Under the pieces are notes generated by a model. It made no database searches and was not told the origin of the DNA. It saw nothing but the letters and a program-made list of their open reading frames with translations. Source: Acidobacteriota bacterium (GTDB lineage Bacteria > Acidobacteriota > Vicinamibacteria > Vicinamibacterales > UBA2999). Taken from it: a stretch of 64,000 nucleotides of DNA. The stretch covers positions 418,645 to 482,644 of the forward strand of contig JAUYQQ010000015.1 of the NCBI GenBank assembly GCA_030697165.1, read 5' to 3'. Both the position numbers and the translations under genes were made by a program. The stretch's first letter is position 1. Every line of letters begins with the position of its first letter. Shown piece after piece: positions 30,056-41,259 of the stretch.

Positions 30056-30433
30056 GTGCGTATTGCCGTTAGGATTGCATCCACTCTCATTTCAATGGAT
30101 CAATCTATTTCAGCAATTTCGCCCGCCCCGCAGGGCTTCGTGGCCATCAGCCGCTTTACCATCGCAAATGGGATGACCGCTCAGGTCAAAGCAGCTTTTC
30201 GTGCCCGCCCGCACCTCGTTGACAGCGCCTCCGGGTTTTGCCGCATGGAAGTGATCAGCCCAGTTGATCATCCCGAGGAGATCTGGCTGATTACTTTTTG
30301 GACTGATGAGCAAAGCTTCCGCACCTGGCACCGCAGCCATATGTACCGGGACTCGCACAAGGGGATCCCCAAGGGCCTCAAGCTGGTCCCCGGCGAAACC
30401 GAGATCAGGCATTTCGAGCACGTGGCCTCCTGA
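30056..30433 (+). CDS. Antibiotic biosynthesis monooxygenase (ABM) domain protein
   Basis: A small protein of up to 125 residues. The ABM-type dimeric alpha/beta fold is seen in FVAISRFTIANGMTAQVKAA, FRARPHLVDSASGFCRMEVI, and IWLITFWTDEQSFRTWHRS followed by a C-terminal HFEH-type strand. This fold occurs in quinol oxygenases and HmoA-like haem-degrading monooxygenases. The Trp/His residues around WHRSHMY are compatible with either. The GTG at 30056 follows an AGAGG sequence; an internal ATG at 30095 is the alternative start. It is 11 bp upstream of the cobalamin-binding gene, hence probably its operon leader. Confidence 0.75.
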   Translation: MRIAVRIASTLISMDQSISAISPAPQGFVAISRFTIANGMTAQVKAAFRARPHLVDSASGFCRMEVISPVDHPEEIWLITFWTDEQSFRTWHRSHMYRDSHKGIPKGLKLVPGETEIRHFEHVAS

Positions 30434-30444
30434 AAGAGAACGCA

Positions 30445-31512
30445 ATGACCGGCACTTCCAACACCGCTGATCTCCTCACGCGCCGGCGGCTCGAGCTCTC
30501 GCAGATCCTCGTGGATCGCGAGTTTGCCCGTCACCCGGAACTTGAGCAGCGTTACGGCGCGACGGCGCGGGAGAAGTCGCTCCAGGATGTCGGCTTCCAT
30601 CTGGCGCACCTGGCTCAGGCTCTCGCGGTCGGCAATCCTCCGCTGTTCACAGATTATGTCGCCTGGGCGCGGATCGTGCTCGCCCAGCGTCGGGTGCGGT
30701 CCGAGGACTTGGCATTCCACCTCAGCTGCCTGGCTGACGTTCTGCGGGAGCAGCTGCCCGGTGAGGCAGGCGAGAGTGCCGCTGCTTACGTGGAGCGGGC
30801 GGTGCAGGCGATGCCCGGAATGCCGGATGACCTGCCAACCTTCCTGCATGAGGGAGCGCCCCTCTCGCCGCTGGCCCACCAGTATCTGGAGGCGTTGCGC
30901 CGGGGAGAACGTCAGGTCGCCAGCCGGATCGTGCTGTCTGCGGTGGAGAACGGCACGACAGTCCAAGATATCTATCTGCAGGTATTTCAGCCAGTGCAGT
31001 ATGAGATCGGTCGCCTCTGGCAGACCAACCGCATCTCGGTCGCGCAAGAGCACTATTGCACCGCGGCGACCCAACTCATCATGTCGCAGCTCTATCCGCT
31101 CATCTTCGCGGCTGAAAAGCACGGGCGGACGCTCGTGGCGACGGGCGTCGCGGGCGACCTCCACGAGCTCGGGATCCGCATGGTGGCTGATTTTTTCGAG
31201 ATGGGGGGCTGGCACACCTATTATCTCGGGACCAACACCCCGCATGCCGCGGTCATCGCGGCCGTGCAGGACCGCAACGGCGACGTGCTCGCGATCTCTG
31301 CCACCATGCCGTATCACGTCGAGAACGTCCGTGAGCTGATCGCAGCGGTCCGCCGCCAGCCTGACCTGAGTCATGTGAAAATCCTGGTCGGCGGAGGCCC
31401 GTTCAACCGCGATCCGGAACTGTGGTCGAAGCTCGGAGCTGATGGCACGGCCGTCGACGCCCAGTTCGCCCTGCGGCTTGCGGATGAGTCGACGGGAGAA
31501 GAACAACAATGA
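30445..31512 (+). CDS. Cobalamin-binding photoreceptor-like protein without DNA-binding domain
   Basis: A 355-residue protein. Residues ~1-130 form a helical region with no HTH (RYGATAREKSLQDVGFHLAH). Residues ~135-215 match the B12-binding helical cap, including W192-x9-E202-H203, the signature of CarH/LitR-type light sensors, in which the Trp and His sit over the adenosyl face. Residues ~225-345 form the Rossmann-like B12 domain with D238-L-H240-E-L-G243, the DxHxxG motif that supplies the lower cobalt ligand. The gene overlaps the following kinase by four bases (ATGA), so light- or B12-dependent control of that kinase is the likely role. A redox role is the alternative. Family and motifs are seen; photochemistry is inferred. 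Confidence 0.88.
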   Translation: MTGTSNTADLLTRRRLELSQILVDREFARHPELEQRYGATAREKSLQDVGFHLAHLAQALAVGNPPLFTDYVAWARIVLAQRRVRSEDLAFHLSCLADVLREQLPGEAGESAAAYVERAVQAMPGMPDDLPTFLHEGAPLSPLAHQYLEALRRGERQVASRIVLSAVENGTTVQDIYLQVFQPVQYEIGRLWQTNRISVAQEHYCTAATQLIMSQLYPLIFAAEKHGRTLVATGVAGDLHELGIRMVADFFEMGGWHTYYLGTNTPHAAVIAAVQDRNGDVLAISATMPYHVENVRELIAAVRRQPDLSHVKILVGGGPFNRDPELWSKLGADGTAVDAQFALRLADESTGEEQQ

Positions 31513-32726
31513 ATGACGCGATCAAGGAGCGCGGTCTGGTCCTTGTGTGTAACGCGGCCGGTTTCGTGGACCGCATTTTGCGCGACGACCTCGGGCTGGG
31601 CGCGCGGATTCCGCCCGGCACATCTTTCACCCACTTGGTGGACCATGAGGCAAGGGAAAAGGCCCAGGCATTTGTAGCAGAGATGCAACTGAAGCACGCG
31701 GCGCACGACTGGGAAATCACCGTGCCCCTTGATGCCCACCTCATGCCGCTCCATTTCAGCGGAGCCCGCGTGGATGATGGCTTCCTTGTCGTCGTCGCGA
31801 GCACCCGGGATGACCTCCACCGGATCAACGAGGAGTTGATGCGGATCAACAACGAGCAGGCGAATGCCCTGCGGATGGTGGCCAAGGATCTCGCCCTCCA
31901 CGCCCGGGGCAATCGCGCGCTTGACGACGCGGCCTACGAACAGCTCACGCGCGTCAACAACGAGCTGGCCAATCTCCAGCGGGAGCTGGCGCAAAAGAAC
32001 GCGGAGCTGCAGAAGCTGAACGAAACCAAGAACCGTTTCCTGGGTATGGCCGCCCACGATCTGCGCAGTCCGCTTGGCGTCATCATGGCCTACGCGCAAT
32101 TCCTCGAGGCGGAGGCCACGCCCGTTCTCAGCGAGGAGCAGCGCGAGTTTGTCGCCACCATCCACCGGACCAGCGAGTTCATGCTCAACCTGGTGACTGA
32201 CCTGCTGGATGTCAGCACGATCGAATCGGGCCGCCTCGAGCTGCAACGGGCGATGATCGATGTCGCCGCGCTGGTGGAGCGCAATGTGACCCTGAACCGG
32301 ACCCTCGCGGCCCGGAAACGTATTGCGGTGGATTTCGTGCCGTCGCCCGTCGGTCCGGTGCAGGCGGAGCTCGACGCGAACAAAATCCAGCAGGTGCTAA
32401 ACAACCTCCTGACCAACGCCGTGAATTACTCGCATGCAGACACCCGCGTGATCGTCACGCTTGAAGCCTCGCCCGAGTCCGTCACGGTCAGCGTCCGCGA
32501 TCAGGGGCAGGGCATCCCGGCAGAGGAATTGCCGAAGCTCTTCCGGCCCTTCGGCCGCACCCGCGTCAGGGGGACCGCCGGGGAGCAGAGCACCGGCCTG
32601 GGACTCGCGATCGCTCGGCGCATCGTCGAGGGGCATGGCGGCGAGATCGCCGTGGAGAGCCAGGTCGGTCGTGGTTCTGAATTCCGGGTAATCCTGCCAC
32701 GATTTACCTCGGCGTTAAGTCGGTGA
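31509..32726 (+). CDS. Soluble PAS sensor histidine kinase coupled to the cobalamin protein
   Basis: A 405-residue kinase with no membrane helix. Residues ~5-105 form a PAS-like domain (LVLVCNAAGFVDRILRDDLG). A coiled coil follows (~108-170, with ELMRINNEQANAL and NNELANLQRELAQKNAELQ). HisKA carries H183 in GMAAHDLRSPLG. HATPase_c carries NNLLTNAVNYS, VRDQGQGIP and STGLGLAIARRIVEGHGG. Co-translation with the cobalamin-binding protein makes that protein the obvious sensor partner. The LuxR-type regulator 107 bp downstream is the likely phosphate receiver. Confidence 0.93.
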   Translation: MNDAIKERGLVLVCNAAGFVDRILRDDLGLGARIPPGTSFTHLVDHEAREKAQAFVAEMQLKHAAHDWEITVPLDAHLMPLHFSGARVDDGFLVVVASTRDDLHRINEELMRINNEQANALRMVAKDLALHARGNRALDDAAYEQLTRVNNELANLQRELAQKNAELQKLNETKNRFLGMAAHDLRSPLGVIMAYAQFLEAEATPVLSEEQREFVATIHRTSEFMLNLVTDLLDVSTIESGRLELQRAMIDVAALVERNVTLNRTLAARKRIAVDFVPSPVGPVQAELDANKIQQVLNNLLTNAVNYSHADTRVIVTLEASPESVTVSVRDQGQGIPAEELPKLFRPFGRTRVRGTAGEQSTGLGLAIARRIVEGHGGEIAVESQVGRGSEFRVILPRFTSALSR

Positions 32727-32794: not shown

Positions 32795-32838
32795 TTCTTC
32801 GAATGTGCCGATGCATTTTCTTAGAATGTGCCGATGCA
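32795..32838. repeat. Two tandem 21-bp direct repeats before the response regulator
   Basis: TTCTTcGAATGTGCCGATGC(A) at 32795-32815 and TTCTTaGAATGTGCCGATGC(A) at 32818-32838 differ at one base and have a 23-bp period. The second copy contains the regulator start codon. A 13-base exact match, GTGCCGATGCAAT, preceded by TTTTCT, recurs at 41317-41329, after the last gene of the block. Possible operator, or trace of an insertion. Confidence 0.7.
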
Positions 32839-33457
32839 ATCAGCAAATGCCAAGCGCATCCTGCTGGTCGACGACGACTTGCCGAGATGCGGCCTCATCA
32901 CACGGGTGCTTGCCGGGTCCGGTTACGTTGTGCACGCCGCACACACGGGAGAACGAGCGCTGGATCTGGTAAGCCGCGAGCCCACGCCAGACCTTGTCTT
33001 GATGGACGTCGTGCTGCCCGGGATCTCCGGGATCGAAGCCTGCCGGCAGATTGGCGAGCGAGCGCGGAAGAGATCGACTCCTGTTCTCCTGATGTCGGGG
33101 TGCGCCATCGGCTCGATCGAGCAGGCGGAGGGCCTTGAGGCTGGCGCCGTCGGTTATGTCGCCTGGCCCATCTCGGCGCGCGAGCTCAAGGCGCGCGTTT
33201 CCGCGGCCCTCGGTACGAACCAGCGTCCGCAGAGTGAGCACACGCCCGACTTGTCCCCTCGCCAACTGGAAGTCGTGGCGTGGATTGCCGAAGGGCTCGC
33301 GACCAAGGAAATCGCAGTGAAGCTTGGAATTACCGTGCGCACGGCTGAGACTCACCGCGCAGCAATCCTGCGGCGACTGGGGCTTCGCTCCTCCTCCCTT
33401 CTTGTGCGATATGCGATTGAGCGCGGCATCACGCCGAACACCCTCGGTCTGCAGTAG
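32834..33457 (+). CDS. LuxR/NarL-family response regulator with atypical receiver
   Basis: A 207-residue regulator. The receiver (~10-125) has the acidic cluster VDDD, phospho-acceptor D58 in LMDVVLPG and Ser in LLMSG. The nearly invariant lysine is replaced by W111 (VAWPIS). The C-terminal GerE/LuxR helix-turn-helix spans LSPRQLEVVAWIAEGLATKE and VRTAETHRAAILRRLG. The start ATG lies inside a tandem repeat with no clear ribosome site. Position suggests it acts under the B12-linked kinase and controls the Kai genes or itself. Confidence 0.9.
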   Translation: MQSANAKRILLVDDDLPRCGLITRVLAGSGYVVHAAHTGERALDLVSREPTPDLVLMDVVLPGISGIEACRQIGERARKRSTPVLLMSGCAIGSIEQAEGLEAGAVGYVAWPISARELKARVSAALGTNQRPQSEHTPDLSPRQLEVVAWIAEGLATKEIAVKLGITVRTAETHRAAILRRLGLRSSSLLVRYAIERGITPNTLGLQ

Positions 33458-33692: not shown

Positions 33693-33974
33693 ATGAAGGA
33701 CAAACACGAGTTCCATTTCCGACTCTACGTCTGCGGGCACACCGGCCGGAGCCAGCGGGCGATCGCAGTGCTGCAGAAGCTGTGCGAAGAGAAGCTGGCC
33801 GGACGCAGTGAGTTGGAAGTGATCGATGTGCTGGCCGAACCCGGCCGTGCCGACGAGGACAGGGTGCTTGCGACCCCCACGTTGATCAAGCTGGCCCCCG
33901 CCCCTATCCGGCGCGTGGTCGGTGATTTATCGGACCCGTCTCGCCTGGGCGAGGCCCTCGACCTCCCTGACTAG
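33693..33974 (+). CDS. kaiB: KaiB-family protein
   Basis: A 93-residue protein matching KaiB throughout: FRLYVCGHTGRSQRAIAVLQ, LEVIDVLAEPGRADEDRVLA and TPTLIKLAPAPIRRVVGDLS. The block ATPTL...PIRRVVGDLSD corresponds to the region that refolds in the fold-switched, KaiC-binding state of cyanobacterial KaiB. The ATG at 33693 gives the usual KaiB length; a GTG at 33684 is possible. A 235-bp leader precedes it. The gene lies 27 bp upstream of kaiC, the standard kaiBC order. Role: binding to the KaiC CI ring to reset its phosphorylation state (known for the family). Confidence 0.94.
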   Translation: MKDKHEFHFRLYVCGHTGRSQRAIAVLQKLCEEKLAGRSELEVIDVLAEPGRADEDRVLATPTLIKLAPAPIRRVVGDLSDPSRLGEALDLPD

Positions 33975-34001: not shown

Positions 34002-35510
34002 ATGAATAGCATCAGTTTCGAGAAACTCCCGTCATATATCGACGGCTTCGACCATATCGCCGGCGGGGGCTTGCCGTTTGGGCGGACAACGCTCGTCGCC
34101 GGGTCGGCTGGCAGCTGCAAGTCCGTCTTCGCGGCCCAATTCCTGGCCGCGGGCATCCTGCACGCGGGCGAAGCCGGGGTCTTCGTCACGTTCGAAGAAT
34201 CAGTGAACGATCTCCGGCGGAACATGACCGGCTTCGGCTGGGACATCGCGGCCTGGGAGCGCGCCGGCAAGTGGGCCTTTGTCGACGCCGCCCCGGAGTT
34301 CGATGCGCCGACGAGCGTGATCGGGGAGTTCGATTTCAACGCCTTGATCGCCCGCATCGAGCACGCAGTAAAGCAGACCGGAGCGCGCCGGCTCTCCATG
34401 GACACGCTGGGCGCGGTGTTTTCCCATTTTGCCGACAGCCCCACGGTCCGGCGTGAGCTCTTGCGGGTCGCGGAAGCCGTCAAACGCATGGGCGTGACCG
34501 CGGTGATGACGGCCGAGCGCACCGTGGAATATGGTGAACTATCCCAGTTCGGAGTCGAAGAGTTCGTGGCGGACAACGTCGTCGTCCTCCGCAATACCCT
34601 CGCGGCGCAGAAGCGGCGGCGCACCTTGGAAATCCTGAAATTCCGCGGCTCGTTCCACCACAAGGGGGAATACCCGTTTACCGTGGTGCCGGACCATGGC
34701 ATCGTGATCATTCCACTGTCCGCGATCGAACTCAACCAGCAATCGTCAAGCGAGCGCATGACCTCCGGGAGCGCGGATCTCGACACCATGTGCGGGGGAG
34801 GATTCTTCCGCGATTCCATTGTGCTCATCTCCGGGGCGACCGGCACCGGCAAGACGTTGATGGCCACCGAGTTCATCGCCGGCGGGGCCCGCCACCAAGA
34901 GCGGTCTCTGCTCTTCGCGTTCGAGGAGAGCCGCCAGCAACTATTCCGCAACGCCAGCGGCTGGGGCGTCGACCTCCCCCGCATGGAGAGCGAGGGGTTA
35001 CTGCGCATTTGCTGCGAGTATCCGGAGGCCGCCGGCATGGAGGATCATTTGATCCGGATGAAAAAGATCATTGAGGAATACCGCCCGAGGCGCGTGGCGG
35101 TGGACAGCCTTTCCGCCCTCGAGCGGGTGTCCTCGGTCCAGAGCTTCCGCGAATTCGTCATCTGGCTGACCTCCTACATCAAGCAACAGCAGATCGCCGG
35201 CCTCTTTACCGCCACTACCCCGAATCTGTTCGGCGGCACTTCGGTGACCGATGAGCACATCTCGACCATCACCGACTCGATCATCCTGCTCCGCTATGTG
35301 GAAATGCACGGCGAAATGCGGCGCGGGGTCATGATCCTGAAGATGCGCGGTTCCAGTCACGACAAGGACATCCGCGAGTTCCTCATCGACGCCACCGGCA
35401 TGCGGATCGGCCGGCCCTTCCGGGAAATCTCCGGCATCCTTTCCGGGCGGCCGCGTCAGGCGGTCGGCATGGAGCTCGAACGCATCCACGGTTTCTATCC
35501 CCAAGAGTAG
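34002..35510 (+). CDS. kaiC: KaiC-family autokinase/ATPase
   Basis: A 502-residue protein with two RecA-like domains. CI has a variant P-loop G34-S-A-G-S-C-K40-S41, in which Cys replaces the last Gly, and catalytic E65/E66. CII has a canonical P-loop G278-A-T-G-T-G-K284-T285 and catalytic E308/E309. The CII autophosphorylation region reads V-T416-D-E-H-I-S421-T422-I-T-D. T416, S421 and T422 align with T426, S431 and T432 of Synechococcus KaiC, so both clock phosphosites are kept. The C-terminal tail after SGRPRQ is short, consistent with the absence of kaiA nearby. The gene is directly followed by a giant hybrid kinase. Confidence 0.95.
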   Translation: MNSISFEKLPSYIDGFDHIAGGGLPFGRTTLVAGSAGSCKSVFAAQFLAAGILHAGEAGVFVTFEESVNDLRRNMTGFGWDIAAWERAGKWAFVDAAPEFDAPTSVIGEFDFNALIARIEHAVKQTGARRLSMDTLGAVFSHFADSPTVRRELLRVAEAVKRMGVTAVMTAERTVEYGELSQFGVEEFVADNVVVLRNTLAAQKRRRTLEILKFRGSFHHKGEYPFTVVPDHGIVIIPLSAIELNQQSSSERMTSGSADLDTMCGGGFFRDSIVLISGATGTGKTLMATEFIAGGARHQERSLLFAFEESRQQLFRNASGWGVDLPRMESEGLLRICCEYPEAAGMEDHLIRMKKIIEEYRPRRVAVDSLSALERVSSVQSFREFVIWLTSYIKQQQIAGLFTATTPNLFGGTSVTDEHISTITDSIILLRYVEMHGEMRRGVMILKMRGSSHDKDIREFLIDATGMRIGRPFREISGILSGRPRQAVGMELERIHGFYPQE

Positions 35511-35514
35511 CCGG

Positions 35515-38500
35515 ATGGCGCTCAGCCCACTGATCCTGGTTGTCGATGACACCGATGCGACTCGCCGGGCTACCGTGCTGGTGCTGGAGAAGGCCGGCTT
35601 TCGCGTGGCGGATGCGGTCGACGGCACATCCGCGCTGAGATGCATCCCCGAACTTAGCCCCGACCTCGTCTTGCTTGATGCCATGATGCCGGACATCGGC
35701 GGCATCGAGGTGCTGCGGCGGCTGCGGGCCGACCCGCGAATGGCCCACTTGCCCGTCGTGATCCTCAGCTCGCAATTGACGCAGGCTGCAGACCAGGCCG
35801 AGGGACTCGACGCCGGCGCGGACGGCTACATCGCCCGCCCGATCAGCAACGTGGAGCTCGTCGCCCGCGTCCGGGCCATGCTCCGGAGTCAAGAACTCAG
35901 TCGCCAGTTGCGCGAAAGCGAGGCGCGCTTCCGCGAGCTGATCACGCAGCAGACCGATGGCTTGCTCGTGGTTGACGCCGCCGGTCGCATCCAGTTCGCC
36001 AACCCGGCGGCCGCACGAATTTTCGGACGCCGGATAGAGGACCTGGTGGGGCTTCCCTTCGGTTTTCCGATCAGTTCCGGCACCCCCGTGGAAATTGACG
36101 GGCTTGAGGCTGGCAGCTCTGGCCGCATCCTGGAGTTTTTCGCCTCCGCGACCCAGTGGGACCTTCAGCCGGCCCACCTGATCTCGCTGCGTGACATCAC
36201 CGAGCGCAAGCGCTCGGTGAACCTGCTGGCTCTCCGGGCTCGCCAGCAGGAAGTGATTGCGCGGCTGGGGATCGAGGCCTCCCGGACCATCTCCCTCGAC
36301 GACATTTTCCGCCTGGCAACGTCCAGGGCCGCCGAGGCGCTGGACATGGAGCTGAGTAAGGTGCTCCAGCTCTCGCCTGACCGGAGCCGGCTGCGGCTCG
36401 TGGCCGGCGTCGGCTGGGATCCGGGCGTAATCGGCACCGCGACCGTCAGCAGCGAACGGGAATCCCAAGCCGGGTTCGCCCTGATGCAGGGCATCCCCGT
36501 GGTGTCGGATGACTTGGCCAACGAAACCCGCTTCCGCGCGTCGCCCCTGCTGGTAGAGCACCAGGTTCGCTCGGGCATGAGCACGATCATCTACCTGCGG
36601 GGCACACCGTGGGGCGTGCTCGGCGTTCATTCCCGCCGCCCGCGCCAGTTCTCCGAGCAGGACAGCCACTTCCTCCAGTCCGTCGCCACCCTGCTTTCCG
36701 TGGTGATCGAGCGTCTGGCCGCCGCGCGCGAGCAATCTGCCAGCACCCAGCGCATGCGGGAAGCCCAGCGCATCGCCCACCTCGGCAGCTGGGAACTGGA
36801 CATCCCGACCAAGAAGCTGAGCTGGTCCGAGGAGGTGTTCCGGATGTTCGGCGTCGAACCGTCAGCGTTCGCCGCCACCTACGAAGGATTCTTCGCGTTC
36901 GTGCATCCGGACGACCGCGACGCGATGCAAACCGCCCAGCAGGCCGCGCTGTCGGGCGGGGGGGCGCTGGAAATCGAGCACCGAATCATCCGGCCCGACG
37001 GCAGCATTCGTCACGTCCTGGAGCGCGGTGAACTGATCCACGACGACAGCGGACAGCCCGTGGCCCTCTCTGGAACGGTCCTGGACACCACCGACCTGAG
37101 AGCGGCGCAGAACCGTGCAGAGCGGATGAATACCTTGCTCACCGAGGCCCAGCAGATCGCGAACATGGGCAGTTGGGAGATGGACCTCACCAGTGGGAAG
37201 CTGGTCTGGTCGGAGGAAACGTGCCGCCTGTTTGGCATCCGGCCGGAGGAATTTGGCGGCACCTTCGAGACCTTCACCGGGCTCATTCTTCCCGAGGACC
37301 TGACCGCCTTCGGCGCGGTTCATGCCGAGATCACACCCGAAGCACCGTTACTGGAGGCTGAATATCGGATCCGGCGCCCCGATGGCGAGGTGCGGTGGAT
37401 GTTTGAGCGCGGCAGGGTCGCGTTTGACGCCGCCGGAAAGGCCGTCCGCCGGCAGGGCGTGGTCATGGACGTCACCGAGCGCAAGCGCGCCGAGGCGGAC
37501 CTGCGCGAAAGCGAGCAGTTGCTGCGGATCGCCGGTCATATTGCGCACATGGGCGCATGGAGCGTGGACTTCCCGGATGTCCGCATCACGTGGTCGGATG
37601 AAGTCTGTGCGATCCACGACATGCCCGCCGGCACGGTACCGGCCTTGGACCAGGCCCTGGCCTTCTACACCCCGGAATCGCGCCCGGTCATCGAGTCGGC
37701 CTTTTCCCTCTGCGCCAGCGAAGGGACGCCATTCGACGTGGAGATTGAGCTGCTGAGCGCGAAAAAGCAGGGCAAGTGGGTGCGGTCGATCGGACAAGCC
37801 GAGCGGGATCAGACCGGTGCGATTCGGCGGGTGCACGGCGCGTTTCAGGACATCAGCGAGCAGAAGAAAGCGCAGGCGGAGGCGCTGCGCGCGGCGGAGA
37901 CGCTCGCCGGGATTGTCGAGGTTCAGCAGGAAATCGCCAACGTGGACCTGACGTCCTCCGATGTGCTGCGGAGGATTGCCGAGCACGCCATGGTTTTAAC
38001 AGGGGCGGCGGGCGGCGCGGTGGAGATGGTGGACGGATCGGACATGGTATATGCCGCGACTGCCGGCATGGTTGTGGACGATGTCGGTCCGCCAAAGCTT
38101 GAAGGCGGCTTATCCGGCGTGGCGGTCGCCACCGGCAGGGTCCTGTGTTGCGACGATACGGAGACCGACTCCCGCGTGGACCTGGCGTTCTGTCGCGCAC
38201 TGGGCGTACGTGCCATGATCGTCGCCCCGGTGCATGTGTCCGGGGAGATCGTGGGCGTTCTCAAGGTCCTCTCCGACAAACCCGGCGCTTTCGGTAAGCG
38301 CGATATTCACAACCTTCAGATTCTGGCGGAGACGCTCGGTGTCGTCATTCAGCGCCATCGCGCGGCCGATGCCCTCCGCGGAAGTATGGAGGAATTCCGG
38401 CGTCTGGCAGAGGCCATGCCTCAAATCGTCTGGGTCACACGCGCGGACGGCTGGACCACCTACTTCAACCAGCACTGGATGGACTATACCGGGCTGACGC

Positions 38501-41259
38501 TGGAGGAAAGCCTCGGCCATGGCTGGAATAAACCCTTTCATCCCGACGATCAGCAGCGGGCTTGGGAAGCCTGGCAGCGGGCCACGTCGACCGTTGGCGC
38601 TTATTCGCTCGAATGCCGCTTGCGCCGCGCGGATGGACAGTATCGCTGGTGGCTGATCCGCGGAAAACCCCAACAGGACGCGGCCGGCACGGTGCAGAAG
38701 TGGTTCGGCACCTGCACGGACATCCATGACCTGAAAATCGCCGAAGAGGAGATCACCAGAAGCAATCGTGCGCTCACGATGTTGAGTCGCTGCAACGAGG
38801 CGCTAATCCGCTCGGAGAGCGAGAGCGGCCTGCTGGCGGCCGTCTGCCAGATCGCTGTGGACATCGGCGGTTTCCGGCTGGCCTGGGTCGGCTACGCGCT
38901 TGACGATGCGGAGAAGACCATCGCGTGCCAGAGCCACGCCGGTTTGGGGGGTGGCTATCTCGCCAATGTCCGGATCACCTGGGGCGAAAACGATCCGGCG
39001 GGGCAAGGTCCAGCTGGCAGAGTAATCCGTCACGGCGAGCCGGTGGTGATTCCTGATTTCGAATCCGATGAAGGGTTCCGCCCCTGGCTGCAGGCGGCGC
39101 GGGCGCACGGATTCCGGGGCACGATCGCCCTGCCGCTGGCCAACGGGAGCCGCACGTTTGGCGTGTTCGTGCTGTATCAGGCCGAAGTCCGCCAGCCGTT
39201 GCCGGATGAACTACGCCTGCTGCAGGAACTGGCGGATGACATGGCTTTCGGCATCGTCAACCTCCGGGCGCGCGCCGACCGGCAACGGATGCACACGGCG
39301 GTGGAACAGGTCGCCGCCTCGGTCTCGGCCGCCGCGAGCACCGATTTTTTCGAACAACTGACCCGCAACATGGTGGCGGCTCTGGGGGCGAAAGCCGGGT
39401 TTGTGGCGAAGGTGCTCCCCGACGAGCCGGTCTCCTCACGCACCATCGCTGTCGTGGTGGACGATCAGGTCACGGCCAATTTCGATTACGTCATCCAGGG
39501 CACGCCCTGCGAGAATTTTTACACATCGGACACCTGCGTTATTCACGAGCAGGTGGCCCGACAGTTTCCTCTGTCCCCGACGCTGGCGGCGTTGGGGGCC
39601 GAGGGCTTCGTGGGGCGGCGGCTGGACAATGCAGCGGGAACATTCATCGGCCAGATGGTTGTGATCTTCCGCGAGCCGCTCAAGGACCCTGATTTTGTGG
39701 TCTCCACGCTCCAGATTTTCTCGGCCCGCGCGGCGGCGGAATTGGAGCGGCAGGAGACCGACACGAGACTGCGCGAGCAGGCGGCACTGCTGGACGCAGC
39801 ACAGGACGCCATTCTGGTGCGAGACCTGGACCACCGCCTCACCTACTGGAACAGGAGCGCCGAGCGGCTCTACGGGTGGACCGCGCAGGAAGTGCTCGGT
39901 CGGTCAATGGCGGAATTGCTCTCCTCCGACCCGGGCACATACGACCAGGCCATGGAGGCGTTGCTCGCCGATGGCGAATGGACTGGTGAGTGCCGGCACA
40001 AATGCAAGGATGGCCGCATCCTCGACATCGAAGGGCGGTGGACGCTCGTGCGGGATGCCGCCGGCCAGCCCAAGACCGTTCTTGCCATCCACACGGACGT
40101 CACCGATCGCCGGCAGCACGAACGCCTGGCCCAACGCTCGCAGCGTCTGGAGTCCATCGGCACGCTGGCGGGAGGGATTGCCCATGACCTGAACAATGCG
40201 CTCGCTCCCATCACGATGAGCGGTGAATTGCTAAGGGATGCGTATCCCGGTGAATCAGAACTGCTGGACATGATCGACAACGGGAGCAAGCGTGCGGCGG
40301 ACATGGTGCGGCAATTGTTGGCGTTCGCCAAGGGCGCGGCGGGTGAACGCGTCTCCGTCCAGACCAGCCGTTTGGTCATGGAGTTGGAGAAGCTGATGAT
40401 GGGCAGCTTCCCCAAGAACATCCGGCTGGTGATCAAATGCGACGCCCACCTTCCGACCGTGCTTGGCGACGCCACACAGTTGCACCAGGTGCTGCTGAAT
40501 CTGTGCGTCAACGCCCGTGACGCCATGCCCAGCGGCGGTACGCTCGCTGTGTCAGCGGAGAGCCAGGAAGTGGACGCCGTCTACGCCAGTTCCGTGCCCG
40601 GCGCCAGGCCCGGCCAGTACCTGGTGCTGCGGGTGCGCGACACCGGCACGGGCATTCCGCCGGAACTTCTCGACCGTGTTTTCGACCCGTTCTTCACGAC
40701 CAAAGGCCCGGACAAAGGCACGGGCCTGGGCCTGTCCACCGTGATGGGCATCGTGAAGGGACACGACGGATTTCTGCAGGTCTATTCGCAACCTGGACAG
40801 GGCTCGACTTTCGCCGTGTATCTGCCCGCCGAAGCTGGTGGCGTTGATGCGGAGCTTGTGACCGAACCGGCAGAGAGGTTCCGTGGGCAAGGGGAAACCA
40901 TCCTGTTCGTGGATGACGAACCCGCCCTCCGGCAGACGGCGCACGCGGTCCTGCAGCGGATGAACTTCACGCCGCTGACCGCCACCGACGGTGCCGATGG
41001 CCTGATTCACGCGGCGAAGCATCGCGCTGAGATTCACGCCATCATCACGGACCTGCACATGCCCCACATGGACGGCCTGGCCTTTGTCCGCGCGCTCCGG
41101 CGCATGCTGCCGGACATCCCGGTCCTGGTGGCCAGCGGTCGGATGGAAGACGACGTGACTGCGGAGTTCAAGACCCTGGGCGTGACGGCCCGGCTGGACA
41201 AGCCATTCACCGAAAGGCAACTGGCGGAGGCCTTGAAGGGTCTGCTCCGACCGAGGTGA
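35515..41259 (+). CDS. Giant multi-PAS/GAF hybrid histidine kinase of the Kai block
   Basis: A soluble 1914-residue protein starting four bases after kaiC. Visible order: receiver (~1-122; D55, but the conserved Lys is R108), PAS (~130-230), GAF (~240-405), three PAS (~410-785), GAF (~790-960), PAS (~965-1085), two GAF (~1095-1430), PAS (~1435-1535), HisKA with H1557 in [10 protein letters not shown], HATPase_c ([34 protein letters not shown]) and receiver (~1795-1914; D1846, Lys in LDKPF). No GAF shows the Cys-His pair of bilin-binding photosensors. In other bacteria, KaiC output passes through PAS/GAF kinases; this enzyme is the natural candidate here. N- and C-terminal receivers allow phosphorelay. 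Confidence 0.93.

Follow-up and report, generated by a model that had tools for sequence, protein, structure and literature searches.

A putative globin-first photocobilin-type photosensor, encoded with a histidine kinase and a candidate noncanonical haem oxygenase in an Acidobacteriota genome

The window analysed here, a stretch of 64,000 nt from an Acidobacteriota contig, carries a gene cluster on its forward strand. An ORF of 355 aa (nt 30445–31512), here termed the sensor, comprises a photoglobin and a B12 domain. It is preceded, after a gap of 11 bp, by a gene of about 110 codons (nt 30095–30433, with an alternative GTG start at nt 30056) coding for an ABM-fold, IsdG/HmuQ-like protein (Pfam ABM, 1.4e-12), a candidate noncanonical haem oxygenase. 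Downstream, the ATG of a histidine kinase gene (nt 31509–32726) overlaps the sensor stop codon as ATGA, in agreement with the translational coupling proposed in an earlier note on this DNA. A response regulator with a LuxR-type (GerE) HTH follows (nt 32828–33457), identified by a Pfam-type domain match and likely to provide a transcriptional output. The cluster continues with genes for a KaiB-like protein (nt 33693–33974; Pfam KaiB, 1.2e-24) and for a KaiC with two ATPase domains and the phosphosite motif HISTITD (nt 34002–35510; NCBIfam circ_KaiC, 6.7e-179; 595.6 bits against TIGR02655, whose curated cut-off is 546), and ends with a large receiver-PAS/GAF-kinase-receiver hybrid (nt 35515–41259), recognised by its domain matches.

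The C-terminal part of the sensor (nt 30865–31509, forward strand; residues ~141–355) was predicted to form an AdoCbl-binding four-helix cap and Rossmann domain. Pfam returned B12-binding (5e-22) and B12-binding_2 (3e-17), whereas no HTH family was matched, and the absence of a DNA-binding domain claimed by the earlier note thus holds. The CarH/LitR-type photoreceptor signature that it had reported was found as well, with W192, E202-H203 and D238-L-H240-E-L-G243 at the positions given, and the Pfam and PDB matches agree with it. All four SignatureFinder elements, namely GxxW, EH, GxxH and GxxxP (PMC11796333), are present, and G189, W192, E202, H203, H240, G262 and P266 are identical across 87 of 87 aligned relatives; D238 is not family-defining, as most proteins in the same alignment have Glu at that site. 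The best PDB sequence matches in a phmmer search were the photocobilins 8j2w and 8j2x (1.3e-28), together with 8j2y, with CarH ranking behind. The AF2 model of the full-length sensor reached a pLDDT of 92.6 and a pTM of 0.85, its B12 domain matching the SasPcob dark structure with an rmsd of 1.8 Å over 210 columns, and a cobalamin adenosyltransferase gene was found in the same genome. The pocket Trp is followed by Gln (Q193), as in 79 of the 87 relatives; the equivalent residue of TtCarH is H132, the light-state His ligand of CarH. Because Gln replaces this His, Q193 predicts, as far as sequence goes, a SasPcob-type, water/hydroxide-ligated light state and not the bis-His state of CarH. CarH and LitR share the AdoCbl domain and the light signature with the sensor but differ in having a MerR HTH in the place of its globin domain and the light-state His in the place of Q193.

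As for the N-terminal part (nt 30445–30849, forward strand; residues ~1–135), the earlier note had described a helical domain of ~130 residues replacing the HTH. The replacement stands, but the domain is recognisable as a phycobiliprotein-like photoglobin, which had been missed, as had the fact that the ABM gene upstream and the KaiBC genes downstream are part of the cluster. By phmmer, sensor residues 31–102 align with SasPcob residues 248–318, in its C-terminal biliverdin domain, the domain order being reversed. Used alone as query, the N-terminal domain matched SasPcob at 6.9e-5 and, weakly, phycocyanin alpha. Its separate AF2 model (pLDDT 93.2, pTM 0.86) gave, in Foldseek and VIA-align comparisons, Z scores of 17.3 with smURFP, 17.2 with allophycocyanin B and 16.4 with SasPcob (8j2w_B). 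Biliverdin is contacted in SasPcob by D270 and W296 (PMC10979010) and, because of the numbering offset in the alignment (the PDB sequence index is the paper's number minus 6, W61 being index 55), these correspond to D48 and W74 of the sensor. W74 is kept in 87/87 aligned proteins and D48 in 81/87; both are near-invariant with or without an ABM gene, and were rejected as predictors of its presence. On its modelled fold, the N-terminal domain is a phycobiliprotein-like, bilin-binding photoglobin with a bilin as putative ligand.

The nearest characterised proteins are the photocobilins SasPcob and AbDPcob (PMC10979010; PDB 8J2W, 8J2X, 8J2Y), which bind AdoCbl and biliverdin, have their Co-C bond cleaved by green and red light, and like the sensor join a CarH-like B12 domain carrying W-x9-EH to a bilin globin; SasPcob also shares the two bilin-contact residues and the Gln after the pocket Trp. 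They differ in that the globin comes first in the sensor, that its partner is a separate kinase instead of a fused cyclase, and that the window sensor has ABM upstream and KaiBC downstream. The sensor belongs to the photoglobin-B12 family (Schneider et al. 2022, cited in PMC10151467 and PMC11796333), with which it shares the globin-B12 fusion and the signalling context.

In 74 of 82 loci the gene that immediately follows the sensor codes for a kinase, a count that, like the other locus counts, is non-independent owing to MAG contigs, common descent and horizontal transfer. Output through the coupled kinase instead of direct DNA binding, as the earlier note had suggested, is thus most likely. 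In 58 of these kinases the N-terminal domain is homologous to its counterpart in the window kinase, whose first ~155 residues (nt 31509–31980) were matched by no Pfam family; from sequence, we infer that this family-specific domain is a docking candidate for the sensor.

The ABM gene immediately precedes the sensor gene in 30 of the 82 loci, these being the window, a sensor paralogue of the same genome and 28 others, and the ABM label changes at least four times on the sensor tree, as forced by the starred branches. At the paralogue, ABM and PAS domains form a single protein (L039), which ends in a Cys-rich motif, LPICMECGK...YCPQC, and a similar Cys-rich protein is encoded downstream of the sensor in L070. 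The ABM profile matched HmoB, IsdI, IsdG and MhuD in the PDB. In NCBIfam, HmuQ was the best match, below cut-off, and 20/20 aligned members matched the HmuQ and IsdG-type haem oxygenase models, again sub-cut-off. Of the IsdG N-W-H triad, the catalytic Trp and the haem-ligand His are present in 66/66 unique sequences, as they are in IsdG/HmuQ-type haem oxygenases, which have the same fold; these enzymes differ in their catalytic Asn, replaced in the ABM proteins by an invariant Ser (65/65 readable members, while 11 of the 12 other ABMs compared have Asn), and in being linked to iron uptake rather than to photoreceptors. Characterised IsdG-type enzymes require the catalytic Asn and yield staphylobilin or mycobilin, not biliverdin (PMC5557675, PMC9393634).

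Among 297 genomes of the window's phylum, four ABM genes scored above 90 bits and all four adjoin photoglobin-B12 genes, the next best hit scoring 55 bits. Neither a canonical haem oxygenase (PF01126) nor a phytochrome was found in the window's genome. In photoglobin-B12 genomes at large, ABM and the canonical haem oxygenase are not simply complementary, PF01126 being found in 5/50 of them, ABM-positive and ABM-negative alike, and such a pattern emerged only at the phytochrome loci described below; the ABM-positive L085, L092 and L113 carry the canonical enzyme too. Many relatives, anaerobes included, keep D48/W74 with no nearby ABM. These anaerobes comprise heliobacteria, a Lokiarchaeota MAG and Methanohalophilus (L109, L116, L127, L131, L140), in which O2-dependent haem cleavage is unlikely.

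Exclusivity of ABM to photoglobin-B12, which holds in the sample of the window's phylum, fails in Hymenobacteraceae (the family of Adhaeribacter). In 200 genomes of this family, the ABM subfamily was found in 70, only 10 of which have photoglobin-B12, adjacent in 8; 63 of the 71 ABM genes are not beside photoglobin-B12, some being beside neither photoreceptor type. A phytochrome is encoded in 68 of the 70 ABM genomes, and the other two (G349, G353) have photoglobin-B12 beside ABM. In ABM-less genomes a canonical haem oxygenase, checked by Pfam, overlaps or abuts the phytochrome gene in 30/30 loci, while in ABM-positive genomes it stands beside the phytochrome in 0/25, counts that are non-independent because the ABM-less loci are mostly of one clade. 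At the ABM-positive phytochrome loci, ABM lies at 15–122 bp in nine and within ~4.2 kb in five more. In two ABM-less loci, L248 and L249, the phytochrome is of the short-ORF type that characterises ABM-positive genomes, yet the canonical enzyme is present. Since its relatives adjoin phytochromes in place of the usual haem oxygenase, ABM reads as an undescribed haem-cutting enzyme, and the simplest reading of these gene arrangements is that it would replace BphO as the source of the phytochrome bilin. The ABM protein in the window is likely to be the source of the sensor's bilin, made from haem. A Ser-type ABM lies 15–28 bp from a bacteriophytochrome, with no adjacent canonical haem oxygenase, in L234, L236, L237, L238 and L240, and in L184, L187, L189 and L192 the Hymenobacteraceae ABM is near electron-transfer-flavoprotein-like genes and not a photoreceptor; these neighbours possibly reflect electron supply for haem cleavage, or mere conserved synteny.

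With regard to KaiB and KaiC, the gene order of the window, from ABM through sensor, kinase, KaiB and KaiC to a hybrid kinase, recurs in L086, a gammaproteobacterial MAG. KaiC scored above cut-off in 9 of 50 sampled genomes and in 5 of these 9 (L086, L100, L117, L118, L146) is located within 8 kb of the sensor, against ~0.4% per gene expected for random placement in a 4-Mb genome. A functional link between the sensor cluster and KaiBC is likely. The sensor-KaiBC neighbourhood in these five recurs in unrelated phyla.

Taken as a whole, we favour, with a probability of roughly 0.7, the reading of the sensor as a globin-first photocobilin-type photosensor acting through a two-component kinase, with the ABM protein encoded upstream making its bilin. 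It rests on the sequence and the folds predicted from it, on the residues that contact the ligands, on the conserved order of the genes and on the exchange between ABM and haem oxygenase, from which we infer cofactor binding, photochemistry, kinase control and ABM chemistry. Counting against it are the products and the Asn requirement of characterised IsdG-type enzymes, the canonical haem oxygenase of three ABM-positive genomes, the many relatives that keep D48/W74 with no nearby ABM, and the Hymenobacteraceae ABM genes that stand apart from photoglobin-B12 or from both photoreceptor types. AdoCbl would be bound by the C-terminal domain, and light would cleave the Co-C bond and loosen a dark dimer; a bilin in the N-terminal photoglobin, most likely generated from haem by the ABM product, would extend sensitivity towards red light. 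The coupled kinase would read the light-induced change, probably via its family-specific N-terminal domain, and hand it on to the LuxR-type response regulator encoded next to it, and possibly also to the co-encoded KaiB/KaiC timer.

Among the other explanations, the likeliest, though a doubtful one, has the ABM protein binding haem or a bilin as a partner, or detoxifying haem as an enzyme, and not supplying the chromophore. The Ser at the catalytic Asn site and the ABM-PAS fusion at the paralogue are consistent with it, but the way in which ABM and the canonical haem oxygenase take each other's place at phytochrome loci argues against it, as does the conservation pattern itself, with Trp and His invariant and the Ser setting these proteins apart from other ABMs. 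Somewhat less probable is a sensor of green light through B12 only, with a structural globin domain and no bilin in vivo, in line with the lack of a canonical haem oxygenase in its own genome, the retention of the globin domain in anaerobic relatives and the weak biliverdin binding of AbDPcob (~20% occupancy; PMC10979010). However, AbDPcob has His where the sensor has D48, which is retained in 33/33 ABM-linked members, and a haem-oxygenase-like ABM gene lies in the sensor's own cluster. An AerR-like stand-alone B12 sensor or a SCHIC-like haem sensor, to which the missing HTH and a weak match in the PDB to the SCHIC domain of AppA (2e-4) would point, was rejected as very improbable, given the far stronger photocobilin similarity (1e-28), the complete AdoCbl signature and the additional bilin-globin domain.

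The AerR analogy of the earlier note was accordingly abandoned: because its N-terminal domain is a photoglobin with D48 and W74, the sensor reads as globin-first photocobilin-type and not as an AerR-like one-cofactor protein. AerR is a B12 sensor with no HTH of its own that acts on a repressor rather than on a kinase; the sensor likewise has no HTH, but adds a bilin-globin domain and a kinase partner.

A broader form of the favoured photocobilin-type reading, to which we give even odds, is that ABM founds an undescribed Ser-Trp-His class of haem oxygenases for photosensor bilins, serving photoglobin-B12 and bacteriophytochromes and replacing BphO in many Bacteroidota, and that, in a host outside the cyanobacteria, the sensor-kinase pair also feeds light signals into a KaiBC timer. 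Linkage of ABM or KaiBC to photoglobin-B12, and of ABM to bacteriophytochrome, had no report in the literature searched (the primary photoglobin paper lying outside it), and relative to that literature the ABM and KaiBC linkages of the sensor look new. The photocobilins known so far are two crystallised actinobacterial proteins, for which neither a natural signalling pathway nor a source of the bilin is established. A conserved module of three genes, for bilin maker, dual-pigment sensor and kinase, would give them both, and would be a compact red/green optogenetic cassette. If ABM makes biliverdin, an IsdG-fold enzyme would serve chromophore synthesis and not iron salvage, and there would be an explanation for phytochromes seemingly devoid of a haem oxygenase. 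Through the KaiBC linkage, light input to non-cyanobacterial clocks or timers could be tested directly.

The globin-first photoglobin-B12 family is widespread, known but little-studied. When named genomes were scanned, 80 near-full-length relatives with the globin-first arrangement turned up, from Acidobacteriota, Verrucomicrobiota, Planctomycetota, Gemmatimonadota, Pseudomonadota, Bacteroidota, Chloroflexota and Bacillota (including Paenibacillus and heliobacteria), with archaeal relatives in Methanohalophilus and Lokiarchaeota MAGs. The closest ones, with up to 69% identity to the window sensor, are from Planctomycetota and Verrucomicrobiota MAGs, while the gene is missing from most sampled members of the organism's own genus; on these sequence comparisons, the cassette was therefore probably horizontally transferred. 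The paralogue in the window's genome (G000:C22; L039:7243–9296) is 35% identical to the sensor. A 947-aa photoglobin-B12 fusion was also found in L096, titled as a Klebsiella pneumoniae MAG, a bin that is probably mislabelled.
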